From Synechococcus sp. CCY 9618 (GTDB taxonomy: Bacteria > Cyanobacteriota > Cyanobacteriia > PCC-6307 > Cyanobiaceae), in assembly GCF_019038415.1 (NCBI RefSeq), contig NZ_JAFKRG010000009.1:248001-312000 (forward strand): a stretch of DNA of 64,000 nucleotides, given 5' to 3'. The notes under the pieces were generated by a model. The model was not told where the DNA came from, made no database searches, and worked only from the letters and a program-made list of their open reading frames with translations. Positions 37,843 to 56,205 of the stretch are shown piece after piece (positions within the stretch are counted from its first letter, which is position 1; every line of letters starts with the position of its first letter). A program made the translations under genes and the position numbers.

Positions 37843-39759
37843 ATGCCAGACCTTTCCCGACCAGGTCCCCTGCTTGCTTCTCCGCCGCCCGATCTGCCGA
37901 TGCAGGGGCCCGATCGCCACCCCAATGTGATCCAGGAGCTGCTCGGGGAGCTCTACGACACGTTTTCAGACGTCAGGGACGGTCGGGTGGCGGACTACAT
38001 CCCTGAGCTGGCAAAGGCATGCCCTGATGATTTCGGCATCGTCATCGCCACCTCGGGAGGGCGGATCTACGAGATCGGCGACACGCGCAAGGAATTCACC
38101 ATCCAATCGATCTCGAAGCCATTCATCTATGCGTTGGCGCTGAAGATGCTCTCGCTGGATTTCATGGCCAGCAAGATCGATGTGGAGCCTTCCGGGGAGG
38201 CCTTCAATGCCATCAGTCTGGATTCGGAGTCGGGAAAGCCGCGCAACCCGATGATCAACGCGGGCGCCATCGCCGCTTCCGCTCAGATCTGCGATGCCAA
38301 TCCGGCGGGTGCCGTTGATCTGCTGCTCGATTATTTCGAGGAGCTGGCCGGCCGGAGGCTGACCGTCAATGAGGCCGTCTACCGGTCGGAAAAGGAGACG
38401 GGCCACCGCAACCGGGCCATCGGCCACCTGCTGCGCAACTTCAACATCATCGAGTCCGACCCTGAGCCGGCCCTCGATCTCTATTTCCAGCAGTGCGCCA
38501 TCTCCGTCACCTGCCACGACCTGGCCGTGATGGCCGCCACCCTGGCCTGTCAGGGGCGCAATCCCTTCACCGGCGGCCAGCCCCTCTCCCATGACATCAC
38601 GGTCCGGGTGCTGGCCCTGATGGGAACCTGCGGGATGTATGACTTCGCCGGCCAGTGGCTCCACGATGTGGGCATCCCGGCCAAGAGCGGTGTCGCCGGC
38701 GGGGTGATGGCGGTGATTCCCGGGCGGCTCGGCATCGCCACCTATTCCCCACCCCTCGACAACTTCGGCAACAGCGTGCGTGGGGTGGCCGTCTGTCGCC
38801 AGCTCTCGGCGGGGGTGGGCCTGAGCCTGTTCAACCAGTACTTCCAGACCGATGCCACGATCCGCCGCTCCTACCAGGGTTCCCAACGCAAATCCCGCCG
38901 CTGGCGCAGCGAGCGGGAGCTGCGGATCCTCGCCCCCCACCGTGACGAAGTGCGCATCATCCACGCCCAGGGGGTGCTCGATTTCGGGGGTATCGAACAA
39001 CTGGCCGCCGAACTGGTGCGGCTCAGCAACGACGTACGCATCCTCATCCTGGATCTGGCCCATGTGACCGAGTGCCCGCTGGAATCCTCGGGGCTGCTGG
39101 ATCGCCAGCTGTGTGCGATGGAGGACGAGGGAGTTGAGATCATTCTCTCGCGGGCGGGACGGCTGCCCCTGGTCTCCATGCCCGACTGGAAGATCACCGA
39201 TCGGGTTGATGCCTACGACCACCTGGACTCCGCCCTGGAGGCGGCCGAGGATCTGCTGCTGGCCTGGTATGACGCGGCTGGCGAAGGAACCGATGGCAGC
39301 GGCCCTGGGACACTCGAGGATCAGGGGCTGCTCCAGCCGCTCGCGGCAGAGCATCGGCGGATCCTGGCCGAGAGGATGTCCCTGCGGTCCTTCGCGGCCG
39401 GGGATTTCGTGCTTCGCCGGGGCGATCCCGGTGACGAACTGTTCCTGGTGCGCTCCGGTGCCTTCGACATCGCCCTCGATGTCAAGACCGGGGATGGACT
39501 CTGCCATTCCACCCGGCTTGCCACCTTCGGCCCCGGGCTCTGTTTCGGCGAGATCGGCTTCGTGGCCCAGACCCCCCGCACCGCCGACATCATCGCCACC
39601 CAGCCGGGGGAGTGCTGGGTGCTGCACCGCCAGGGGTTCGAAGACCTCAGCCAGAGCCACCCCGAGGTGGTGATCGCCCTGCTCACGGCGCTCACCTGCG
39701 ACATCGGCGCCAAGCTCAGCCAGACCAGCGTCCAGCTCACCCTGATGGAGCACTACTGA
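37843..39759 (+). CDS. Glutaminase fused to STAS and cyclic-nucleotide-binding domains
   Basis: 638 residues, about twice a plain glutaminase. Residues 24-330 form a serine-dependent glutaminase: SISK (Ser89, Lys92), NPMINAGAI (Asn139 region), ETGHRNRAIG and GVAGGVMAVIPG. About 345-455 is a STAS domain (VRIIHAQGVLDFGGIEQLA, ILILDLAHVTECP). About 475-620 is a cyclic-nucleotide-binding domain with phosphate-binding cassette FGEIGF...PRTADI, retaining the Glu and Arg that contact the nucleotide. The enzyme would convert glutamine to glutamate plus ammonia, with activity likely tuned by a cyclic nucleotide; that is inferred. An MscS gene follows 36 bases downstream. Confidence 0.9.
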   Translation: MPDLSRPGPLLASPPPDLPMQGPDRHPNVIQELLGELYDTFSDVRDGRVADYIPELAKACPDDFGIVIATSGGRIYEIGDTRKEFTIQSISKPFIYALALKMLSLDFMASKIDVEPSGEAFNAISLDSESGKPRNPMINAGAIAASAQICDANPAGAVDLLLDYFEELAGRRLTVNEAVYRSEKETGHRNRAIGHLLRNFNIIESDPEPALDLYFQQCAISVTCHDLAVMAATLACQGRNPFTGGQPLSHDITVRVLALMGTCGMYDFAGQWLHDVGIPAKSGVAGGVMAVIPGRLGIATYSPPLDNFGNSVRGVAVCRQLSAGVGLSLFNQYFQTDATIRRSYQGSQRKSRRWRSERELRILAPHRDEVRIIHAQGVLDFGGIEQLAAELVRLSNDVRILILDLAHVTECPLESSGLLDRQLCAMEDEGVEIILSRAGRLPLVSMPDWKITDRVDAYDHLDSALEAAEDLLLAWYDAAGEGTDGSGPGTLEDQGLLQPLAAEHRRILAERMSLRSFAAGDFVLRRGDPGDELFLVRSGAFDIALDVKTGDGLCHSTRLATFGPGLCFGEIGFVAQTPRTADIIATQPGECWVLHRQGFEDLSQSHPEVVIALLTALTCDIGAKLSQTSVQLTLMEHY

Positions 39760-41544: not shown

Positions 41545-44241
41545 ATGGCCGCTGTCGTGACCACCCCCTCCCCCGGCCCGTCTCCGCGCAGCGGGGCAGA
41601 AATTCGCAGCGCCTTCCTGGGGTTCTACGAGCAGCGCGGCCACCGGCCGATGGCCAGCGCCTCCCTGGTGCCCGACGATCCCACGGTGCTGCTCACCATC
41701 GCCGGCATGCTGCCCTTCAAGCCGGTGTTCCTCGGCCAGGCGGAGCCGCCGGCGCCGCGGGCCACCAGCAGCCAGAAGTGCATCCGCACCAACGACATCG
41801 AGAACGTGGGCCGCACGGCGCGGCACCACACCTACTTCGAGATGCTGGGGAACTTCTCCTTCGGCGACTACTTCAAGGAGCAGGCGATCCGCTGGGCCTG
41901 GGAGCTCACCACCGGGATTTTCGGGCTGGATCCGGACCGCCTGGTGGTCAGCGTCTTCCGGGAGGACGACGAGGCGGCGGCCATCTGGCGTGATGGTGTG
42001 GGCGTGAACCCGCAGCGGATCATCCGCCTGGATGAGGCCGACAACTTCTGGGCCTCCGGCCCCACCGGCCCCTGTGGCCCCTGTTCGGAGCTCTATTACG
42101 ACTTCCATCCCGAGCGGGGGGATGACGGCATCGATCTGGAGGACGACAGCCGCTTCATCGAGTTCTACAACCTGGTGTTCATGCAGTACAACCGCGATGG
42201 GGACGGCACGCTCACGCCCCTGACCCGGCGCAGCATCGACACCGGCATGGGCCTGGAGCGCATGGCCCAGATCCTCCAGGGGGTGCCGAACAACTACGAA
42301 ACCGATCTCATCTACCCCCTGATCGAAACGGCCGCTGCCCTGGCGGGCGTCGATTACCACGCCCTTGACGGCCGGGGCCAGACCTCCCTCAAGGTGATCG
42401 GTGACCACAGCAGGGCCATCACCCAGCTGATCGGTGACGGGGTCAGCGCCTCCAACCTGGGCCGCGGCTACGTGCTGCGTCGCCTGCTGCGGCGGGTGGT
42501 GCGCCACGGCCGGCTGCTGGGCATCGATCGCCCCTTCCTGGCGGCAATGGGCGAGGCGGCGATTGCCCTGATGGCGCCGACCTACCCCCAGCTGCTGGAG
42601 CGGCGGGAGCTGATCCTGGCCGAGCTGGTGAGGGAGGAGGCCCGCTTCCTGGAAACCCTGGAGCGGGGCGAGAAGCTGCTGGCCGAGGTGCTCGCCACCC
42701 GGCCCGCGTGCATCAGCGGCGAGGCCGCCTTCGAGCTCTACGACACCTACGGCTTCCCCCTGGAGCTCACCGAGGAGATTGCCGAAGAGCACGGGCTGCG
42801 GGTGGATGCCGAGGGCTTCGAGGCGGCCATGGAACGGCAGCGGCAGCGGGCCAAGGCGGCGGCCGTGAGCATCGACCTCACCCTGCAGGGGGCGATCGAC
42901 CGGCTGGCGGCCGAACTGGAACCGACCCGCTTCCGGGGCTACGAGGCCCTCGACCAGACCGCCTGCGTGCTTGCCCTGGTGGTGAACGGCGAACCGGCCA
43001 CTGCCGCCTCGGCCGGTGACACCGTTCAGATCGTGCTCGACAGCACGCCCTTCTACGGGGAATCGGGCGGCCAGGTAGGGGACCGTGGCGTTCTCCTGGC
43101 CGGGGGCGAAGCGGACGGCGTGGCCGGCGGGGTGATCGTGCGGATCGATGCGGTGAGCCGCAACCGCAGCGTGTTCGTGCACGGCGGCCGCATCGAGCGC
43201 GGCAGTCTGCGGGTGGGCGAAGTGGTGCAGGCCCGGGTGGATCGCACCTGCCGCCGCCGCGCCCAGGCCCACCACACCGCCACCCACCTGCTGCAGGCCG
43301 CCCTCAAGCAGGTGGTCGATGAAGGGGTCTCCCAGGCGGGATCCCTGGTGGATTTCGACCGGCTGCGGTTCGACTTCCACTGCCCACGGGCCCTGAGCAC
43401 GGACGAGCTGGAGCGGATCGAGGACCTGGTCAACGGCTGGATCGCTGAGGCCCACCCCCTGGAGGTGCGCGAGATGGAACTGGAGCGGGCCCGGGCCGCC
43501 GGGGCCGTGGCGATGTTCGGCGAGAAGTACGCCGATGTGGTGCGGGTGGTGGATGTGCCCAATGTCTCGATGGAGCTGTGCGGCGGCACCCACGTGGCCA
43601 ACACCGCCGAGATCGGACTGTTCCGCATCGTCACCGAGACGGGGGTGGCGGCGGGGATCCGCCGCATCGAGGCGGTGGCGGGTCCGGCCCTGCTGCCCTA
43701 TCTGAGGGAGCGGGACCGGGTGGTGCGTGAGCTGGCGGATCGCTTCAAGGCCCAGCCGGGGGAGATCGTCGATCGCGTCGCTGCCCTGGCCGACGAACTC
43801 AAGGCCAGCGCCAAGGCCCTGACGGCGGCGCGGGGCGCGCTGGCGGCGGCCAAGGCCAGCGCCCTGGCGGAGCGAGCCGAGGCGGTCGGCTCCCATCGGC
43901 TGCTGGTGCAGCGGCTGGATGGGGTGGAGGGTGCAGGGCTGCAGGAGGCAGCGCAGCAACTGCAGCAGCAGCTCGGCGACGGGGCGGCGGTGGTGCTCGG
44001 TGGACTGCCGGATCCGGAGGACCTGGGCAAGGTGGTGCTGGTGGCGGCCTTCGGGCCTGCGGTGGTGGCCGCCGGCGCCAAGGCCGGCGCCTTCATCGGC
44101 GGCATCGCCCGGCTCTGCGGCGGCGGCGGCGGTGGCCGGCCCCAGCTGGCCCAGGCCGGCGGGCGCAACGGGCGTGCCCTCGACGATGCCCTGGTGGAGG
44201 CGCGTCGGCTGCTGGAGCAGGAGCTCAGAACCGGTAGTTGA
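41545..44241 (+). CDS. alaS: Alanine--tRNA ligase
   Basis: 898 residues, a normal AlaRS length. The N-terminal catalytic core includes [42 protein letters not shown] and the class II motif 2 area [19 protein letters not shown]. The editing domain holds the [11 protein letters not shown] and CGGTHV zinc-binding pair. The C-terminal oligomerisation region closes with the glycine-rich [15 protein letters not shown]. It charges tRNA-Ala and clears Ser- or Gly-tRNA-Ala. Its last 17 bases overlap the convergent TpsB gene. The antisense frame covering 41509-43959 is a shadow. Confidence 0.97.
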
Positions 44242-45925
44242 GCCTGGTGTAGAGCCCCTGGCTCAGCAGCCAGTCGTTCCAGGGGCCCAGATTGTCGTTG
44301 GTGAAGAAGGGCTTCACCCAGCCCAGCTCCAGGGCCCAGTTGTTGCCGGCCAGCCAGCGCACCAGCACCCCGCCGGCGCCCACGGTGTCCCTGAAGCTGC
44401 CGCCCGGGAAGCTGCTGCGGATGCCGCCGGCTCCCAGGAAAGGGACAAGCTGCAGGGCGTTGCGCTTGTCGTTCCAGAACGTCCAGACCGTTTCGCCGCT
44501 GGCCAGCCAGCCGCTGTCGCCGCTGACCAGCTGGCCGGGCAGGCCGCGCAGCCCCACATCGGAGCCCAGGGTGAACTGCATCGAGGAGGTGAGCGGCGCC
44601 AGGGCCACCTGGCCGGCGGTGCGCAGGTTGACCTGCCAGCGGGGCGCGGCGTTCCAGGAGGCCGACAGCAGGCCGCCCAGGGCGGTGGCCCGGCCTGGAG
44701 CGATGCCGGCCAGGGCCAGCTCCTGACGCTGCACGGCAGGGGTGGCGGCGGCAACCCCCTGCAGCACGAAGAGACCGCCACTCCAGCCACCGGAGCGGGA
44801 CAGCCCACTGCCGCTCGCCCCCAGCCGCAGGTAGCCGTTGCTGGGGCGACTCACGCTGTCCGGCACCGTTCCGGGCAGGGCGGCGCCCTGGAAATAGGTG
44901 TTGCTGCGGCTGGCGCTGTACCCGGCGAAGAGGCTCCAGCGCTGACTGAGGGATTCACCCACCAGCCACTCCAGCTGGACCACCCCCTGGTACTGGCTCG
45001 TGGCGAAGCCGTCGGCCGGCGCCGGCAGCTCGACCAGATTGCGGCGGCTGTAGCCGAAACCGGTGGTGAGGCTGAGTTGATCGCTGAAGGGCAGGGTGTA
45101 GCTGAAGGAGGTGATGGCCGCCCCCAGCTCGCTGGAGCCGGTGGCGTCGAGTTCGCCGTAGAGCAGCAGCGTGTCGCCCCGGCGCAGCAGGCCGGGCTTC
45201 AGCAGGGTGGCCACGCCGCGGAACTGGCCCGAACCGCTGTTGCCGTCATTGCGGAGGGAGAGGTCACCCTGCCAGGGCTGGTGGCCTGGTTCCACGGCCA
45301 CCCGCAACACCCCCTCGGCGGGATCGCTGCCCAGGCGGGTGAGGGTGCCCCGCACGCTCTCGATGCCCGGCTGCCGTTTCAGCAGTTGCAACTGCCCCTC
45401 CACCGCCGAGAGCCGCAGAATCCGGCCCCGCAGGGGCCCCAGCAGGCGCTCCACCCGGCGGTTGAGCCAGGGATCGCTGCCGGACGCCTGGATGCCGACC
45501 ACCCGCCCTTCCACCACCTCCAGATACCCAGGCGCCGGTTCGTCGACCACGTACACCCGGCTGCTCACGTAACCGTCGAACACCAGCTGGGTGCTGAGGG
45601 CGACGGCGCAGGCCTTCAGCCGTTCAGCGGGATCGGCGATGGTGCTGCAGGCGGCAAGAAAGCGCCGCAGCTGGGCGGCGTTGTAGAGCGTCAGTCCGCG
45701 CACCTCAGGCATGGCTCCGGCTGAAGGTGCCAGGGGAGCGGCGGGTGTGGCAGGGGGGGCGCTTTCGATCGGAGGGGTGGTGGGCTCCAGGGGGCCGCTG
45801 TCGAGGCTCGGAGCCGGGGCCGTCTCCGTGGGGAGCGGTCGTTCCCGCAACGGCACCGGGGCCGGCAGCCGCACCGGGCCGTTCTGCAGGGGGGGGGCCA
45901 CCAACTGGGCTAGCAGGACGAGCAT
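44225..45925 (-). CDS. ShlB/FhaC/HecB-family outer-membrane transporter (TpsB)
   Basis: 566 residues. A signal-like N-terminus is followed by a proline-rich segment, and then two POTRA-type domains at about 70-235. The first has [19 protein letters not shown], the second [13 protein letters not shown]...[24 protein letters not shown]. The C-terminal beta-barrel has alternating strands and ends in aromatic Phe (RLNYRF). TpsB proteins export one TpsA partner across the outer membrane, and the divergent gene at 46075 is a matching TpsA. A C9 run (plus-strand G9 at 45889-45897) lies in codons 10-13. The start ATG at 45925 gives a weak signal peptide, so the N-terminus is less certain. Confidence 0.88.
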
Positions 45926-46074: not shown

Positions 46075-49000
46075 ATGGTCGGCAAATCTGGTCTCGGTCG
46101 TTACCAATTTTTCCTGCAACAGCTGCGCCCTGGTCCCTGGGCCATGCTGGTGGCTCTTTCTGCTGCGCTGGCCGGAGGGTCGGCCCCTGCCAGAGCCGGT
46201 GAGATCACGGCCACCTCCGGGGCAAAGGGCCTGGGCAGTCAGGTCAACGGGGTCCCTGGCGGCAGCTGCCTCAGCGGGCGCTGCGCCATTCAGGGAGGGA
46301 CCGGCGCCGGCGCCAACCTCTTCCACCGTTTCTCGGCCTTCGACACCCGCGGCGGCATCACCGGTGTGAATCTCGACGTGGGCCGATACCGCAACGTGAT
46401 CCTGGGCGTCACCCATTCCCAGGGCAGCTTCATCGACCGATCCATCGCCCTCAGCGCGCCGGCGAATCTTGTCTGGTTGTCCCCGGGCGGCATTCGGCTG
46501 GAGGGCGGGGGTGGCTTCACCAATGCCCGCCATCTCACCTTGAGCACGGCCACAGGCCTGCGGATCGGAGACGGCGTTTTCGATGTGTTCGGCACCGGTG
46601 CTGCCGCCGCCAGGGGTCTGACGGGTTCCCCCGACCTGAGCCGCTCCGGGCTGCGCACCGATCCGCTCACCCTGGGGCAGCTGGGACTGAGCGCCCAGGG
46701 GGACCTGTCCCTCGACGGCGGTCTGCTCACGGTCGACAGTGGTCTGCTGATCGATGCCCAGGGCGGTCACCTCCTCCTTGGCGGCTCGCGGCTCACGGCT
46801 CCCGGGGGCGAGGTCGACCTGCACGGTCAGCAGGTGATGCTGACCGACAGCACGGTGGATGTCTCCTCCCCCGGCGGGGCCGGAGGGGCCATCACGGTGG
46901 CTGGTGGCAAGGTGACGCTGGCAGCGACCCGGCTGCTCGCCTCAGGCGGCGGCGGCGGCGGCAGTGTGCGTGTCGGCGGAGGCCTGCGGGGAGCCGATCC
47001 GGCGACTCTGAATGCTCTCGAGACCACGGTGGATGAGGCCTCCAGTCTGCGCGCCGATGCGACGGTGAAGGGGCATGGCGGGCAGGTGGTGGTGTACGCC
47101 AGCGGACACGCCAGGGTCAATGGGGATCTGGGCGCCCGCGGTGGACCTGCCGGCGGCGACGGCGGTCTGGTGGAAACCTCGGCCGCGGTGCTTGAGCTGA
47201 CCTCCACGCCCGATCTGGCGGCGGTGGCCGGCCGGGGGGGCACCTGGCTGATCGATCCGATCAACATCGAGATCTTCGATCCCAGCCTTCCGCCGGCCTC
47301 GATGGGGAGCGACTCGATCTCCAGGCTGAACATCAACAACCTCAACGCCTGTCTCAACTCGGGTTGTCAGCTGCAGCTGGACACCAATCAGGCGGGTCCA
47401 CAGGCAGGCAATATCTACGTGAACGCCGGCTTCAACAAGGTCTCCGGGACGACTTCGGAGATCCAGTTGCGCGCCGATCGGAACATCTTCATCAACGTGC
47501 CGGGCAGCGCTGCCCTGGCCTTTTCGAACACCTCCACCGCCGGCGGTCTCAGCGTTTCCCTTCGCCATGGGCAATTCAGCTCGGGTCTCCAGGGCCCCGG
47601 TGCCGCCTACTGGCAGAACGGTGACATTGCCCTGGGCAGCGGCAATTTCAACATCACCCAGGGGGCGGCCAACGCTCCTGGCGCTCTTGTCCTGGCCGGA
47701 GACGGCAACCCCCTCACCCTGCGCTCTGGAAGCTTGCGGACAGGTTCGCTGCGCTGGGAGCCGGGCTTTGCTTCGGGCCTCCAGATCGGGGCCGGCGGCA
47801 GCGATGCCACTCTTCTGGTTGGGGTCCTTTCCACCAGCCAGGCGTCAACGATCCGGCTCCAGGGATCAGGCGCATCCAGCCTCAACATCGCGTCCTCCAC
47901 CTTTCTCAATAGAGGTCTGATCGGTGGCAGCGGGATCATCACCGTCGGCAACGGGGCAGGACGCTTCAGCAACGGGAGCGGGGTGGCGCCGGCCGGCTCC
48001 GTGATCCTTTCCCCGGAGGGCGACCTTCAGATCCGTGCCGGACAGATGCTCTTCGGCGACGACAGCCAACTGCGGCTGGATCTCGGCAGGAACGATCAGC
48101 TCACCGTTTTCGGCGATGCGGTGCTGGGGGGCGGCCTGCTGGTGTCCTCTCCCCCCACCTTGAATGGGGTCACTGGCCTCGATCTGGTGCGTGCCCAGCA
48201 GATCCGCGGGGGGTTCGCCCCCGGTGCCGTCAGCCTGCCGCCGCTTGTCCGGCTCGACGGGATCACGCAGACGACGGATCCGCTTCTGCCGGCGGTTTTC
48301 CGGGGAGAGGCGCTGCCGCTCCTGCCAGCCCCTTCACCACCGAGCCCTTCACCACCGGGGCTTTCAGCATCGGGGCCTTCATCGCCCCGGCCTTCATCGC
48401 CCCGGCCTTCAGCACCTCCACTTTCAGCATCTGCACCTGAACCACCTGCGGCCGCAGCCCCAACCCCTTCCGCCCCGCTGCGGGCAGCGGCGACACGCCT
48501 GCTCAGCATCCCTGATCTGGCCTACCAGATCTTCCCCGGCACCCAGACCTCACCGGCGGGCTCGTCCCTGGGCGGCAGGGATGACGGAGAAGGCTCCGAT
48601 GCGCTGGCCGTCAACCTCTCCGAGGCCGATTTCAGGCTGGAGGCCGCTGGGTCGGGGAGGCTTCCCGGTCCCCTGACCACCACCACCTCCACCATGGGCG
48701 CCGATCAGGTGGCCATCGCCATCTCCGAGGGCGATCAACAGCGCAGCGAGGACGTCAGGCGTTCCCTTGGGGATGTGGGCCCACCGGACGATGCCCCGGG
48801 GAGTCTGCGGGTTGATGAGTTGCAGAGGTTGCTGCAGGAAGCCTCCCGGAAGGGGGACGGCGATGACGAGCGCTTCAACCCAGCGGTGCTGATGGTGGCA
48901 TTCACCGAAGCGAAGGGCTCGGCCGCCCGTCCCTCCGGCGGCTCGCCATCGAAGGCAGCCAATTCCTTTCTGGACCTGATTCTGCTGAGCCGTCAAGGAG

Positions 49001-50007
49001 AGCCCCTGGGTCAGCGGGTGGAACTCTCCAGGGAACAGTTCGGCGCCCAGCTGCGGGCGCTCTACCGGCAGCTGGCACGCCTCGAGCCCCTCCAGGTGGA
49101 GAATCCCGACTCACCCTCCAGACAGCTCCATCGCGCCATCATCGGCCCGGTGGCCGAGGAACTCCAGCGTCGGGGCATCACCACCCTTGTGATCGTCGCC
49201 GACCGGGGGCTCCAGGCGCTGCCGTTTGCGGCCCTGCACGATGGCAGGAGCTACTTCGGCGACCGTTACGGCTTCGCGCTCACCCCGTCCCTGAATCTCA
49301 CATCCTTGGCCCCTCCCCGTCAGACCCGAGGGCGGGTGCTGGCGGCCGGGGCCTCCGAGTTCGACAGCCTCAGCCCCCTGCCTCTGGTGAACAAGGAACT
49401 GGCGGGGATTCCCGAAGGTGTCGGCGTCGATCGCTACCTCAACCGCTCCTTCACCCCAGCGGTCCTGCTCACCCAGGCCGCCGACAGTCGCTACGAGCGT
49501 CTGCACGTGGCCACCCATGCGGAATTCCTCCCCGGCGGGCCGGCCCAGGCCCGGATCTACACGGGCACCGGCCCGGTCAGCCTCAAGGACTTCTCCCGAC
49601 TGCGCCAGCAGCGCAGCGGCAGTCCCCTGGAGCTCTTCGTGCTCAGTGCCTGCCGCACAGCCCTGGGGGACGCCGACAGCGAAATGGGCTTCGCTGGCCT
49701 GGCCCTGCAGGCGGGGTCACGCAGCGCCATCGGAACCCTCTGGTACGTCGATGACGTCGCCACCTCCGCCTATTTCCTGCAGCTCTATCGCTATCTCGAC
49801 CAGGGCCTGCAGAAATCGGAAGCCCTCAGGGCCACCCGCCGGGCCATGGCCACTGGCACCCTCCGGCTTCAGGGCGATAAGGTCGTTTCATCCGACGGCG
49901 TTCCCCTGCTGACCGGTCTTTCTCCTTCCCAGCAACGTCGCATCGCGCGAGGAATGAACCATCCCTATTTCTGGGCTGGGGTGCAATTGATCGGAACGCC
50001 CTGGTGA
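46075..50007 (+). CDS. TpsA-type secreted protein with C-terminal CHAT (caspase-like) protease domain
   Basis: 1310 residues. A signal peptide ends near residue 42 (SAPARA-GEI). Then a TPS/filamentous-haemagglutinin N-terminal domain (about 43-330) has FHRFSAFDTRGGITGVNLD, ANLVWLSPGGIRLEGGG (the NPNGI position) and beta-helix-like GG repeats. A beta-rich region and a proline-rich pentapeptide repeat (753-787) follow. The last 350 residues form a CHAT domain: ITTLVIVADRGLQALPFAALHDG, the catalytic His1148 in VATHAEF and Cys1193 in LSACRTALGDAD. CHAT proteases are clan CD, caspase-like enzymes. Export by the divergent TpsB would place the protease on or outside the cell. DUF3307 and DUF928 genes follow. 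Confidence 0.9.
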   Translation: MVGKSGLGRYQFFLQQLRPGPWAMLVALSAALAGGSAPARAGEITATSGAKGLGSQVNGVPGGSCLSGRCAIQGGTGAGANLFHRFSAFDTRGGITGVNLDVGRYRNVILGVTHSQGSFIDRSIALSAPANLVWLSPGGIRLEGGGGFTNARHLTLSTATGLRIGDGVFDVFGTGAAAARGLTGSPDLSRSGLRTDPLTLGQLGLSAQGDLSLDGGLLTVDSGLLIDAQGGHLLLGGSRLTAPGGEVDLHGQQVMLTDSTVDVSSPGGAGGAITVAGGKVTLAATRLLASGGGGGGSVRVGGGLRGADPATLNALETTVDEASSLRADATVKGHGGQVVVYASGHARVNGDLGARGGPAGGDGGLVETSAAVLELTSTPDLAAVAGRGGTWLIDPINIEIFDPSLPPASMGSDSISRLNINNLNACLNSGCQLQLDTNQAGPQAGNIYVNAGFNKVSGTTSEIQLRADRNIFINVPGSAALAFSNTSTAGGLSVSLRHGQFSSGLQGPGAAYWQNGDIALGSGNFNITQGAANAPGALVLAGDGNPLTLRSGSLRTGSLRWEPGFASGLQIGAGGSDATLLVGVLSTSQASTIRLQGSGASSLNIASSTFLNRGLIGGSGIITVGNGAGRFSNGSGVAPAGSVILSPEGDLQIRAGQMLFGDDSQLRLDLGRNDQLTVFGDAVLGGGLLVSSPPTLNGVTGLDLVRAQQIRGGFAPGAVSLPPLVRLDGITQTTDPLLPAVFRGEALPLLPAPSPPSPSPPGLSASGPSSPRPSSPRPSAPPLSASAPEPPAAAAPTPSAPLRAAATRLLSIPDLAYQIFPGTQTSPAGSSLGGRDDGEGSDALAVNLSEADFRLEAAGSGRLPGPLTTTTSTMGADQVAIAISEGDQQRSEDVRRSLGDVGPPDDAPGSLRVDELQRLLQEASRKGDGDDERFNPAVLMVAFTEAKGSAARPSGGSPSKAANSFLDLILLSRQGEPLGQRVELSREQFGAQLRALYRQLARLEPLQVENPDSPSRQLHRAIIGPVAEELQRRGITTLVIVADRGLQALPFAALHDGRSYFGDRYGFALTPSLNLTSLAPPRQTRGRVLAAGASEFDSLSPLPLVNKELAGIPEGVGVDRYLNRSFTPAVLLTQAADSRYERLHVATHAEFLPGGPAQARIYTGTGPVSLKDFSRLRQQRSGSPLELFVLSACRTALGDADSEMGFAGLALQAGSRSAIGTLWYVDDVATSAYFLQLYRYLDQGLQKSEALRATRRAMATGTLRLQGDKVVSSDGVPLLTGLSPSQQRRIARGMNHPYFWAGVQLIGTPW
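48331..48435 (+). repeat. Seven-unit 15-bp in-frame repeat in TpsA-CHAT linker
   Basis: Seven 15-base units encode PSPPS, PSPPG, LSASG, PSSPR, PSSPR, PSAPP and LSASA (residues 753-787). Two adjacent units, PSSPR, are identical in DNA. It forms a flexible proline-rich linker between the beta-rich and CHAT parts. Confidence 0.9.
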
Positions 50008-50485: not shown

Positions 50486-51202
50486 ATGAACACCCTTCCT
50501 CCGCCTGGCCTCCGGCCACGATCCGGCAGCGGTGCCCGGCCCCCGGGCCGCCGCGCTGCCTGCATGGTCGCCGCCGGGCTGCTCGCCTTCACCGCGCCTG
50601 GCCTCCAGGTCCCTGCGGCCCATGCCCAGAGCGATCTTCGCAAGACCTTTCCCGGACGCCGGGTGGGGGGTGGCACCAGGGACGAATGCTCCAGCCGCCT
50701 GCTGGCCCACCTGGTGCCCGCCAGCAGCGTCTTCGCCCCCGGCCAGGATCGCTACCTGGGGGTGCTTGAGGGTCCCAGTGCAAGCCCCAGCCCCCTGGAG
50801 CTCACCTTCCGTCCCCTCAGCGGCTGGGGCAGCGCGGGTGCCGCTGTCGCCACCGGCCAGCGGCGGGTCCTGCCGGCCTCCCAGCCCGGCATCACCCTGC
50901 TGACGCTCCCAGCGGTGAAGGTGCCGACGGTGTGGGAGTCGAACTACATCTGCCCGCAGGCGCCCGCCACCCCTGCCCAGACCGATCCCCTCAGCTTCGT
51001 GGCCACCGAGTCGCCTCCGGCCCTCAGCCTGCTGGTGATGGAGGCCTCCAAGGAGGATGGGGCCGTGAAGGCCGCTCTCGCCCTGCTGCAGCGCTCCTGC
51101 GGCGGGAGCGTCTCCCGTCAGGAGGCCCTCGACGCCTTCGGACTGTCTGATCTGATCACGGTCCGGTGGCCAGAGCGGATTCCGGTGCGCTGTCCCGCCT
51201 GA
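50486..51202 (+). CDS. DUF928-family exported protein
   Basis: 238 residues. A signal peptide of about 47 residues (hydrophobic AACMVAAGLLAFTAPGL then PAAHAQS) leads into the DUF928 start FPGRRVGGGTRDECSS. The body keeps the family's paired strands (LTLLTLPAVKVPTVWESNYIC-type) and ends with LQRSCGGSVSRQEALDAFGL. The function is unknown, and from memory the family is often encoded near CHAT and CHASE2 genes in cyanobacteria. Its last 47 bases overlap the convergent cyclase gene. Confidence 0.8.
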   Translation: MNTLPPPGLRPRSGSGARPPGRRAACMVAAGLLAFTAPGLQVPAAHAQSDLRKTFPGRRVGGGTRDECSSRLLAHLVPASSVFAPGQDRYLGVLEGPSASPSPLELTFRPLSGWGSAGAAVATGQRRVLPASQPGITLLTLPAVKVPTVWESNYICPQAPATPAQTDPLSFVATESPPALSLLVMEASKEDGAVKAALALLQRSCGGSVSRQEALDAFGLSDLITVRWPERIPVRCPA

Positions 51203-53108
51203 GGGAGCCGCGCAGCTCCCAGATCCGCAGCCGTTCGGCGCGGCCCTTCACGGCGATTGACCCCCAGTCGAGCCACTCCAGGGGCAGTCCCGCCGGCAGC
51301 AGATCCCGGGTGCTGGACGAGACCAGCACCCGGCAGAGGTTGGTCTGGCGCTCCTTCTGCAGGCTCTCCAGCCGCGAGGCGCAGTTCACCGCATCGCCGA
51401 TCACGGCGTATTCCAGCCGCTCAGTGCTGCCCATTGATCCCGCCAGCACGGCACCGGAATGCACCCCGATGCGCAGACCCATGGCCGGCAGTCCCTCCTG
51501 CTCGAGTTCCTGATTGAGGCGTGCCACATCGCGCTGGATGGCCAGGGCGGCGTCGACGGCGGCCTTGGCGTCGGCCTCCAGCCCGCTGCTCAGGGGGGCC
51601 CCGAAGACCGCCAGCAATCCGTCGCCGGTGAACTTGTTGACCATCCCGCCCCGCCGGGTGATCGCCGGAACGAACAGGGCCATGCCCCGGTTCAGCCAGG
51701 CCAGCAGCTCACCCGGGCTGAGGCGTTCCGACACGCTTGTGAACTGGCAGGTGTCGGACATCAGCACGGTGACCGGCAGCAGCCGACCCTCGAAGCGGCC
51801 ATCGCTGAGCAGACCATCCCGCTGGTTCCACAGCTGGCGGGCCACCGCCGGTGAGGTGGTCTGGCCGAGCAGCCGTTCGATCTGCTGGCGCTGCTTCTGG
51901 CTGGAGGCGCCCCGCCGCAGCCAGGCGGCCCCGGCCATCGTGATCAGTCCGATCAGGGGCATGCTCAGCCCGACCCAGACGAAGTTGTGGAGCAGTGCCA
52001 CGGCGCCCCCGACCATCAGGCCGGCCACCAGCCCCACCACGATCACACTGCGCCGCAGCAGGAGGAAGGCTTCCCCGAGCAGGAGGCCCAGCACCACCGC
52101 CAGCACTTCGGCCGTGCGCTCCAGCCAGCCCGGCAGGGTGCGCAGGCGGCGCGGATCGCTGGCTCGGTCGCGCTCCATCAGGGCCGCCAGGCGATGGGCG
52201 TGGATCTCCACACCGGGCACGAGTCGTTGACGAGCCCCCAGGCTGGATCGGGTCTGGGGCACCGAGAACAGATCCCGCAGGCTGGGGGCCGTGCTGCCGA
52301 TCAGCACGATGTGGCCGCGGATCTGGTCGCTGGGGATCGGCCGTCTGCCGAGCACGTCCTGGAGGCTCCAGAGGTGGAAACTGCCGAGCCGGTGGAAGGA
52401 CAGCATCTGCTGGAAGCCGGCGGCATCGAGGGCCTCGTAGCCCCCGGATTCCGGTTCCAGCCAGGGGCCGGGTTCGGTGCCCCTGTCGAGGCGCTGTCGC
52501 AGGTTGCGCTGGCCCGTGCCCACCTCCAGCAGGCGCAGGGGCAGGGAGACGGTGGCCTCGTCCTGGCCCGCCACGTGAACCAGGTCGCGACGCATGATCC
52601 CGTCGGGATCGACCACCAGGTCATTGAAGCCGCGTCGTTCCGGCGGGGTTCCCGGCACCGCACCGATGGCCTCGGCCACGTTGAAGATGGAGACGAGGCG
52701 GGGATTGCTGCGGAAGCGCTCGCGCAGGCAGCCCTGGTCGGGTCCCACGCCCTGGTCGCGGTAGATGTCGAGCCCGATTGCCACGGCCCCCCCGGCGTCG
52801 AGCCGATCGATCGCTTCACAGAGCACCTTGTCGTCGATGGGGAAGCCGTAGGTGGCCAGGTCCGATTCATCGATGCCGACGATCGTGATCGGCCTGTCCG
52901 TGCCCGGCGGCGCGGCGCGCAGGCTGGTGATCAGGTCGTAGAGCAGCAGGTTGAGGGTTTCGTTGATGGGGCTGCGCTGCAGGGCCAGCAGCAGCAGGGC
53001 GGCAGCCCCATAGGGAACCAGGGAGCGGGCCCCATCCGCCAGACGGCCGAGCCGCAGCCGGTCCCGCACGGACTTCGGGGGTGAGGCGCGGGCAGGTCCG
53101 TTGGCCAT
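51156..53108 (-). CDS. CHASE2-domain class III nucleotide cyclase
   Basis: 650 residues. An N-terminal membrane segment and a periplasmic CHASE2 sensor domain (about 60-315; TIVGIDESDLATYGFPIDD, AVAIGLDIYRD) are followed by three membrane segments (about 335-400) and a class III cyclase domain (about 435-620). Catalytic residues are intact: metal Asp in LMSDTCQF, KFTGDG with Lys and metal Asp, VIGDAVN with substrate-selecting Asp, and the transition-state Asn and Arg. Lys plus Asp at those two positions favours adenylate over guanylate cyclase. Its ATG overlaps the stop of the channel gene by one base (TGATG). The product would be expected to act on the neighbouring channel. Confidence 0.93.
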   Translation of the reverse strand: MANGPARASPPKSVRDRLRLGRLADGARSLVPYGAAALLLLALQRSPINETLNLLLYDLITSLRAAPPGTDRPITIVGIDESDLATYGFPIDDKVLCEAIDRLDAGGAVAIGLDIYRDQGVGPDQGCLRERFRSNPRLVSIFNVAEAIGAVPGTPPERRGFNDLVVDPDGIMRRDLVHVAGQDEATVSLPLRLLEVGTGQRNLRQRLDRGTEPGPWLEPESGGYEALDAAGFQQMLSFHRLGSFHLWSLQDVLGRRPIPSDQIRGHIVLIGSTAPSLRDLFSVPQTRSSLGARQRLVPGVEIHAHRLAALMERDRASDPRRLRTLPGWLERTAEVLAVVLGLLLGEAFLLLRRSVIVVGLVAGLMVGGAVALLHNFVWVGLSMPLIGLITMAGAAWLRRGASSQKQRQQIERLLGQTTSPAVARQLWNQRDGLLSDGRFEGRLLPVTVLMSDTCQFTSVSERLSPGELLAWLNRGMALFVPAITRRGGMVNKFTGDGLLAVFGAPLSSGLEADAKAAVDAALAIQRDVARLNQELEQEGLPAMGLRIGVHSGAVLAGSMGSTERLEYAVIGDAVNCASRLESLQKERQTNLCRVLVSSSTRDLLPAGLPLEWLDWGSIAVKGRAERLRIWELRGSLRRDSAPESALATGP

Positions 53109-54688
53109 CAGACTCCCTTGAAGGCGAAGAAGAGCCGTTTCATGGTGTCGAGCAGGGCATTGGAGCGTTCCGTCTGCTGTTCCCGGTCCAGGCTCTTGAG
53201 TTCGGCCTGACGCTCCTCCACCAGGGCAGCGAAACGCTCCAGCAGATCAGGGTTCTCCCCCAGCAGGCCCTTGATGCTGTCCCGGTCCACCTTCAGCAGC
53301 AGACATTCCTCGGTGGCCCGCACCGTCGCACTGCGGGGGGCGTCGAGAAACAGGGTCATCTCGCCGAACACCTCGCCGGGCCCCAGCTGGCGCACCGCCA
53401 CCGTGTGCCCCGGTTGCACCTCCTTGAGGATCTCCACCGTGCCCCGCAGCAGATGGAACATCGAGCGACCCTCGGCCCCCTCCTGCACCACCGCTTCGCC
53501 GGGGCCGTAGGAGACCAGGTGACTGCCCTCCACGAGCGTCTCCAGCTGCTCCCCGCTCAGGTCGGCGAAGATGCCCACGCTGGAGAGGGCCTGGCAGCAC
53601 AGCTGGGGGGAGGGGCGGTCGGCCTGCGGGGGGCGATCCCTGGAGCGTCGCGGCTGGATCTCGCGCACCGGGAAGGGAATGCTCTGGCCTTCCCGGGCCA
53701 GGGCGTACCAGATGTGCTCCAGCAGATCGCTGCGCAGGTCGCCGATGGCGCCGTCTCCCAGCTCCTTCTGCCACACCTGCAGCTCATAGGCGATCGAACT
53801 GTCCTGGAACTCCCTGACCCTGATGCGGGGTGCAGGTTCGCGCAGCACCCGTGGATGCTGCAGCACCACCTTCTCCAGGAGGGCCTTCGCCTGGGCAGGG
53901 GGCAGGTCGTAGTCCAGGCCGACGCTGAAGCGGTTGCTCACTGCCCCGGAGCGGCCCAGATTGCGCAGCACCTTCTCGGTGACCAGGCTGTTGGGCACCA
54001 CCACCAGGTGACCGTCCATGTTGCGGAGCATGGTGTCGCGCCAGGTCAGCCGCACCACCACGCCCCGCACGCCCTCGTCGACCTCCAGGAAATCCCCCTC
54101 GACGAAATCGTCTCCCAGCTGAAGCTCCAGACCGGAGAACAGATCCTTGAGGGATTCCTGGGCCGCCAGGCCGATGACGGCGGTCAGCACCGCGGAGGTG
54201 GTCACCAGGCCCACCAGGTCGAGCCGGGCCGACTGCCGCACCACCACCACCGTGGCCATGGCCCCGCTGCCCAGGGTGAGCAGCTGCATGAGCAGCTGGG
54301 GCGGCGGCCTCCACAGCCCCAGGTGGGCGGGCACCTCCAGCGCCGCCCAGAGGGCCATCAGAATGGCCGCATAGGTCAGCAGCAGATCGTCGGTGAGCCC
54401 CAGCCACACCCGGTAGCCGTCCGGAAGGGCCTGCAGCGGCAGGGAGCTGAGCACGGCCCAGGTCAGGACGGCGGCCAGGGGGAGCCGCATCGGCATGCCG
54501 GGCAGCTTTCTGCGCCGGCACACCCGGGCGAGCACGAGCAGTCCGGCCACGGCCACCAGGGCGACGATCCAGGTCTGGAGCAGGGCCAATGCGCACGCTT
54601 CGATGGCCCCATCCTGCCGCCGATCCTGGCCTGCGGCTTCGGGAGCGAGCAGGCTGGGAGCACTCGCTTCCGCCTGTGATGCGCCCAC
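53108..54688 (-). CDS. MscS-type channel with C-terminal cyclic-nucleotide-binding domain (bCNG-like)
   Basis: 526 residues. Five membrane segments lie at about 35-60, 73-95, 105-130, 148-170 and 178-200, the last leading into the MscS pore and beta domain (VLTAVIGLAAQESLKDLFSGLELQLGDDF, RLTWRDTMLRNMDGHLVVVPNSLV). The C-terminal cyclic-nucleotide-binding domain (about 365-500) has the phosphate cassette FGEMTLF...PRSATV with Glu and Arg intact, followed by the helix DRDSIKGLLGENPDL. This order is that of bacterial cyclic-nucleotide-gated channels of the MscS superfamily. The GTG start at 54688 overlaps the divergent SIMPL start by ten bases, so a later start is possible. It is co-translated with the cyclase gene. 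Confidence 0.92.
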   Translation of the reverse strand: MGASQAEASAPSLLAPEAAGQDRRQDGAIEACALALLQTWIVALVAVAGLLVLARVCRRRKLPGMPMRLPLAAVLTWAVLSSLPLQALPDGYRVWLGLTDDLLLTYAAILMALWAALEVPAHLGLWRPPPQLLMQLLTLGSGAMATVVVVRQSARLDLVGLVTTSAVLTAVIGLAAQESLKDLFSGLELQLGDDFVEGDFLEVDEGVRGVVVRLTWRDTMLRNMDGHLVVVPNSLVTEKVLRNLGRSGAVSNRFSVGLDYDLPPAQAKALLEKVVLQHPRVLREPAPRIRVREFQDSSIAYELQVWQKELGDGAIGDLRSDLLEHIWYALAREGQSIPFPVREIQPRRSRDRPPQADRPSPQLCCQALSSVGIFADLSGEQLETLVEGSHLVSYGPGEAVVQEGAEGRSMFHLLRGTVEILKEVQPGHTVAVRQLGPGEVFGEMTLFLDAPRSATVRATEECLLLKVDRDSIKGLLGENPDLLERFAALVEERQAELKSLDREQQTERSNALLDTMKRLFFAFKGV

Positions 54689-55449: not shown

Positions 55450-56205
55450 ATGGGCCCGAATCGGTCCCGGAGTCTTCCGCGCATGCTCCCCCGCCGCCGC
55501 CTGCCCGGTCTGCCGGTGCTGCCGATCCTGGTGCTTCTCGTCGGTCCGCTTCCCGGGCCCCTGCCGGCGCGGGCGTCCGAGAGCGCCGTGGTGCAGGAAA
55601 TTCTCGACGGCAAGGAGCTCTACATCGACGGCAGGACCGCCCGGGTGAAGGAGAAGGCCAACGCCCCCCAGAAGCTCAGCACCCAGAACAGCCGGGGCCA
55701 GATCCGCTTCGACAGCGGCGCCGCCGGCCGCCTCAACCGCTTCTCCCAGCTGAAGCTGGGTCAGGGCTGCTTCCTGATCGAGAAGGGCCAGATCCTGGTG
55801 TCGGGCAAGCAGAGCGGCTGCACCCGCTCAGCACGGCTGAGTGTGCGGGGCACCAATTATCTGATCGACATCAACGAGGCAGGGGAGTCGGAGATCTCCG
55901 TGCTCGAAGGGTCGGTGGAGGTCGAGCCGCTGGCCGATGGGGAGCCCACCGGTCAGCCCGCCACCACGGTGGAGGCCGGCCAGAAGCTGCGGCTCTCGCC
56001 GGCGGGGGTGGTGATGGCGATTCTTGGGCTCACGGTGGGCGACTACAACGGCATCCTCGGCGGCCCCCTCTTCCAGGGGTTCCGGGTGCCGCTGCCGGCC
56101 TATGGGTCTCTGGAGGGCTACCTCCGCTCCAAGGTGCCGGGGGTGAATCTCCCCGTGCCGATCCCGGCGCCGTCCCTGCCGTTCGGTCTGCCGCGCTTCT
56201 TCTGA
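55450..56205 (+). CDS. FecR-domain exported protein
   Basis: 251 residues; the ATG at 55483 is an equally good start, directly before MLPRRR and the hydrophobic signal. After cleavage near ARAS the FecR-like beta domain runs about 48-200: VVQEILDGKELYIDGRTARVKEKA, RIRFDSGAAGRLN-type, VRGTNYLIDINEAGESEISVLEGSVEV. The C-terminal tail is proline-rich. Free-standing FecR domains without an anti-sigma helix are common in cyanobacterial periplasm. It lies 66 bp after the SIMPL gene on the same strand, and no FecI-type sigma factor is near. Confidence 0.82.
   Translation: MGPNRSRSLPRMLPRRRLPGLPVLPILVLLVGPLPGPLPARASESAVVQEILDGKELYIDGRTARVKEKANAPQKLSTQNSRGQIRFDSGAAGRLNRFSQLKLGQGCFLIEKGQILVSGKQSGCTRSARLSVRGTNYLIDINEAGESEISVLEGSVEVEPLADGEPTGQPATTVEAGQKLRLSPAGVVMAILGLTVGDYNGILGGPLFQGFRVPLPAYGSLEGYLRSKVPGVNLPVPIPAPSLPFGLPRFF

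Follow-up and report, generated by a model that had tools for sequence, protein, structure and literature searches.

Exoproteins of two-partner secretion such as FhaB, HMW1 and EtpA, which are served by transporters of the FhaC, HMW1B and EtpB type, combine a signal peptide, a TPS domain and a beta-helix with an adjacent TpsB gene, and the same layout is found in the protein described here, TpsA-CHAT of a freshwater cyanobacterium. As in FhaB, a proline-rich stretch lies ahead of the C-terminal moiety; unlike in FhaB, HMW1 and EtpA, the C-terminal domain is predicted to be a caspase-like protease. Separate proteases (SphB1, DegP and CtpA) cleave FhaB, and it is debated whether the C-terminal moiety of FhaB resides in the periplasm or on the surface (PMC13232309), which provides a precedent for the C-terminal moiety of TpsA-CHAT.

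The His and Cys residues of this C-terminal domain occupy motifs equivalent to those of separase and of CHAT proteases such as Craspase TPR-CHAT (Csx29), HetF and SAVED-CHAT, and the fold is shared with TPR-CHAT/Csx29 and separase over approximately 300-314 residues (Z 21-25). CHAT proteases are known chiefly from inside the cell, where TPR or CRISPR partners control them, and CHAT-fold proteases, separase and Csx29 among them, are usually narrow in specificity. Unlike TPR-CHAT and SAVED-CHAT, with identity just 11-18%, the domain studied here would be exported with a TPS beta-helix and lacks a cytosolic TPR or SAVED regulator. In the LepA/LepB pair of Pseudomonas aeruginosa a protease is likewise exported by two-partner secretion, LepA being a trypsin-like serine protease and not a CHAT protein. 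Gingipains are, like the predicted enzyme, caspase-fold cysteine proteases (Z ~19), secreted in their case through type IX secretion in Bacteroidota and predicted to be exported in ours. A search of the open literature, which is weak evidence of absence, returned no paper linking a CHAT domain to two-partner secretion or filamentous hemagglutinin, and related stand-alone and TPR-type plasmid genes carry no annotation beyond 'CHAT domain-containing protein'.

Domain architecture of TpsA-CHAT

The window, that is, the whole stretch of 64,000 nucleotides that was analyzed, contains at 46075-50007 on the forward strand a single open frame of 1310 aa (Table 1). Its N-terminus is signal-peptide-like and ends in ...LVALSAALAGGSAPARA|GE; an in-frame Met at aa 24 offers an alternative start, from which a signal peptide is likewise apparent. 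When the full-length protein was compared with Pfam at 0.01, no TPS match was obtained, and individual profiles remained below their cut-offs, PF05860 alone reaching 27.2 of 33.5 bits (E=4.5e-6, aa 30-460) and adhes_NPXG of NCBIfam 16.1 of the 29.1 bits needed. Despite these sub-threshold scores, the assignment is secured by the relatives, of which 26/42 match PF05860 (best E=3.5e-43), by a profile search of the PDB, which retrieved EtpA (E=1.5e-33) and HMW1 (E=1.2e-17), and by an AF2 model of aa 30-460 with a pLDDT of 94. Foldseek matched this model to the secretion domains of EtpA, HMW1, FHA and HpmA. On the basis of these profiles and the model, we assign the N-terminus to the TPS secretion domains.

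Table 1. Predicted features of TpsA-CHAT and of the adjoining genes in the window
Feature	Position	Strand	Evidence or remark
TpsB outer-membrane transporter (ShlB/FhaC type)	44225..45925	-	PF03865 E=1e-14; divergent to TpsA-CHAT
TpsA-CHAT, signal peptide	46075..46200	+	aa 1-42; sequence, signal-peptide-like by a simple rule
TpsA-CHAT, TPS secretion domain	46201..46740	+	aa 43-222; PF05860 sub-threshold, relatives, profile, model
TpsA-CHAT, beta-helical stalk	46741..48318	+	aa 223-748; AF2 model covers up to aa 460
TpsA-CHAT, proline-rich stretch	48319..48480	+	aa 749-802; sequence
TpsA-CHAT, linker	48481..48876	+	aa 803-934; contains helix ELQRLLQEASR
TpsA-CHAT, CHAT protease domain	48877..50007	+	aa 935-1310 and stop; PF12770, AF2, dyad
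Exported DUF928-related protein	50486..51202	+	signal-peptide-like; conserved cysteines; co-occurs with CHAT
CHASE2 sensor - adenylate/guanylate cyclase	51156..53108	-	PF05226 E=4e-46, PF00211 E=7e-18
MscS channel with cyclic-nucleotide-binding domain	53108..54688	-	PF00924, PF21082, PF00027; frequent neighbor

The C-terminal domain matches the Pfam CHAT family (PF12770, aa 1014-1307, E=3e-51), scoring 175 bits where the cut-off is 24. The AF2 model of residues 915-1310 (pLDDT 91) was aligned by VIA-align with Csx29 (Z 25.3, rmsd 3.3, 314 aligned), fungal separase (Z 24.9, rmsd 3.0, 299 aligned), the transmembrane anti-sigma factor DdvA (Z ~19.5) and gingipains R and K, so that both the profile and the model assign this domain to the CHAT fold. 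The putative dyad consists of His1148 within RLHVATHAEF (codon 49516-49518) and Cys1193 within LFVLSACRTALG (LSACRT; codon 49651-49653); the columns of both residues coincide with those of TPR-CHAT when the profiles are aligned, at a weak score, and the pair is kept in 85/85 aligned CHAT domains of the subfamily, which places the dyad at the level of sequence. The initial annotation had recognized the signal peptide, the TPS domain, the proline-rich stretch and a CHAT domain with His1148 and Cys1193 in one frame, all of which are borne out by sequence, profiles and models, and the comparison with separase and CHAT structures that it proposed agrees with a CHAT fold at Z ~25. A scarcity of cysteines was considered as a sign of export and rejected: additional cysteines average 0.05 in 19 control CHAT domains from outside the subfamily versus 0.11 in the family (Mann-Whitney p=0.74), and the argument was dropped because the controls are equally poor.

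Conservation differs along the protein. Compared with orthologues in seven other strains, the CHAT domain is 80-82% identical and the TPS domain 68-73%, which indicates that the architecture is real and far beyond chance, whereas the stalk, at 41-52% versus 81% for CHAT, is the least conserved part. The proline-rich stretch differs in length among strains. No strictly conserved cleavage motif was found in the linker across the family, and the linker itself differs between the Synechococcus and the filamentous groups.

Fused and split members of the CHAT subfamily

A genome search identified TpsA-CHAT as the holder of the only CHAT domain of its genome. The fusion, taken initially as singular, is nonetheless widespread, and its neighborhood is conserved beyond tpsB. 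With a presence threshold of E<=1e-60, the subfamily was detected in 93/291 cyanobacterial genomes and 59/112 genera of a phylum sample, often in several copies; a profile of the subfamily retrieved 469 related stretches from GTDB contigs, the best 79 of which, examined as loci, are all cyanobacterial except for one contig binned as Crocinitomicaceae (Bacteroidota). That contig (L134) carries CHAT, DUF928-like, CHASE2 and MscS genes in the order of marine Synechococcus and is probably mis-binned. Among viral contigs just 2 weak loci were found. The TPS-CHAT combination is thus a common cyanobacterial family, both halves of which are of known kinds.

The best 79 loci comprise 84 CHAT ORFs. A TPS domain was detected in fusion with 51 of them; 22 are short and 3 long with no such domain found, and the remaining 8 are cut off where the contig ends. 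Of the 22 short ORFs, 16 were taken as intact split genes. In L130, L133, L135, L136 and L137, a separate CHAT gene of 427-493 aa lies immediately behind a TPS exoprotein gene, with small gaps or overlaps at the junction and a divergent TpsB upstream. By the same simple rule as above, signal-peptide-like N-termini are present in 14/16 split CHATs; the corresponding share is 16% for other ORFs and 21% for shuffled N-termini. Mapping the fused or split label onto a quick tree of CHAT takes 5 changes, at least 4 of them forced by well-supported branches, and a split (L112) and a fused member (L113) are sisters. Where the operon is split in the Synechococcus group, TpsA stops just past the helix located ahead of CHAT in fused members, the C-terminus of these TpsA proteins corresponding to the linker helix ELQRLLQEASR (~aa 916-926, 48820-48852).

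The position of split CHATs behind TpsA, mostly with signal peptides of their own, the fused/split interchange and the end of TpsA after the helix together argue that the CHAT protease most likely acts in concert with TpsA at a site outside the cytoplasm, a reading drawn from sequence comparison. The extracellular or surface protease proposed in the initial annotation therefore stands in part: the split CHATs point to a place outside the cytoplasm, while the periplasm, not the surface, is the simplest location. Other split CHATs (L155, L163, L177 and a Nostoc plasmid gene) are remote from every TPS gene detected on the same contig, and CHAT may for this reason have other substrates as well.

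Several loci are rearranged or damaged. Two Oscillatoria genomes carry a tandem TPS-CHAT pair followed by a convergent TpsB (L171 3352-11032; L175 3261-11032). One genome has a TPS-CHAT gene whose CHAT is split by a frameshift (L100 4884-9273) and a further CHAT copy broken by stops (L147 10112-10972). In L109 (8631-11044), a TpsB without its first ~148 aa abuts a CHAT of 387 aa head to head, reflecting either a deletion of promoter, TPS domain and stalk or a gap-filling error, the contig name containing 'fgap'.

Exporter and genomic neighborhood

The export route presumed at the outset has a matching exporter, since the adjoining divergent gene encodes, as judged from its profile match, the cognate TpsB transporter. 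Downstream, the exported product of 50486-51202 is at most a distant DUF928 relative: hhalign aligned it with DUF928 over the N-terminal half only (95.7%, E=1e-8), and the plain name DUF928 was rejected because the curated Pfam cut-off is not reached, only 1/23 family members giving a match, itself below the cut-off (E=0.017). Of 28 long loci from the Synechococcus/Cyanobium group, 26 contain TpsB, 23 the DUF928-like gene, 24 the CHASE2-cyclase and 20 all three, and the order of these genes and CHAT in L143, L144, L146 and L148 differs from that in L102-L108. Across the genus, 26/42 genomes carry a subfamily CHAT (strong matches only; G002, at 36% identity, was left out) and TpsB with the DUF928-like gene occurs in 26/26 of them, whereas the 16 others contain one TpsB (G012) and one DUF928-like fragment (G007); as the genomes are related and many loci are close kin, these counts are not independent. 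Within the genus, CHAT thus travels with TpsB, the exported DUF928-like protein and the CHASE2-cyclase, and membership of the MscS channel in this module is uncertain. As a rule for the whole phylum the module is not supported, since TpsB and the other module genes mostly do not lie beside the fused gene of filamentous cyanobacteria.

Decay of the module is seen in L139 (8458-12560), where TpsB, CHAT and the DUF928-like gene are all truncated and the CHASE2 gene is shortened. The window itself is rich in cyclic-nucleotide genes (37843-39759, 51156-54688, 55450-56205), including a glutaminase-STAS-cNMP gene, the CHASE2-cyclase and the MscS-cNMP channel, plus a gene with a FecR domain.

Proposed function and alternatives

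Sequence comparison and models support the architecture, the export signals, the exporter, the fold, the conservation of the dyad and the fused/split interchange, and TpsA-CHAT looks like a real proteolytic system outside the cytoplasm. We tentatively favor, at somewhat less than even confidence, a TPS exoprotein whose CHAT domain serves as an on-board processing protease, maturing its TpsA carrier or setting it free, either at the surface or in the periplasm. Sec would export TpsA-CHAT, the TPS domain would dock on the neighboring TpsB, and the beta-helical stalk would be threaded to the surface, with CHAT held at the C-terminus by the proline-rich stretch and the helical linker and acting outside the cytoplasm. 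There it would cut its own carrier near the linker (~aa 920-935), freeing the stalk or releasing itself; in relatives, the separately exported CHAT encoded right after TpsA would do the same job. Since split TpsA ends just after the pre-CHAT helix, the products of a cleaved fused protein would resemble the split pair. For this carrier-processing role, we infer catalytic activity, the final location, the protein itself as substrate and the cleavage site. The role is further favored by the constant presence of TpsB in the genus genomes with a subfamily CHAT and by the conservation of CHAT and TPS over the stalk. It is weakened by the linker, in which no cleavage motif is strictly conserved, by the split CHATs remote from TPS genes, and by the filamentous loci, most of which lack TpsB and the other module genes beside the fused gene.

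The strongest rival, possible though on balance unlikely, is an envelope signaling module. The exported CHAT, for which the DUF928-like protein would be an inhibitor or cofactor, would cut a target in the periplasm or membrane, for example the DUF928-like protein itself or the CHASE2 sensor, and would thereby link a surface event sensed by the TpsA filament to a cyclic-nucleotide output and the cNMP-binding MscS channel. This is favored by the two gene orders in which the three partner genes accompany CHAT in 20/28 long loci, by the co-occurrence across the genus and by the fold match to the anti-sigma factor DdvA; it rests, however, on gene neighborhood among many closely related loci, and most filamentous cyanobacteria lack the module genes beside the family. 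A more specific version, in which an exported CHAT on or beside the TPS filament is checked by the DUF928-like periplasmic partner and feeds surface contact into the CHASE2-cyclase and the cNMP-binding channel, appears doubtful.

Rather unlikely, too, is a surface or secreted protease directed against matrix, prey or neighbors with an effect like that of LepA or gingipains; the exported architecture and the match to gingipains R and K (Z ~19) would suit it, but the usually narrow specificity of CHAT-fold proteases speaks against it, as do the split CHATs without a TPS domain, which most simply stop in the periplasm. In a contact-dependent (CDI-like) or polymorphic toxin, CHAT would be the toxin and the downstream DUF928-like protein its immunity protein. 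The order TpsB / TpsA-toxin / small downstream ORF resembles CDI, and in polymorphic toxins caspase-like domains are known as toxins or releasing peptidases (PMC3482391). The expected variable C-terminus behind a conserved scaffold is nevertheless reversed, which makes this reading very improbable: CHAT (81%) and TPS (70%) are conserved and the stalk (41-52%) is variable, the protein cast as immunity factor is exported as well, and CHAT is found repeatedly as an exported protein on its own. A catalytically dead CHAT serving as structural cap or docking module is hardly credible given that His and Cys are kept in 85/85 members.

If TpsA-CHAT is exported as predicted, caspase-like proteolysis would be extended to the envelope in a major phylum, with a reach that includes marine Synechococcus and relatives of Prochlorococcus. 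The adjoining exported DUF928-like and CHASE2-cyclase genes are candidate regulators or targets, and the recurrent interchange of fused and split forms makes the question of location and carrier processing directly testable.
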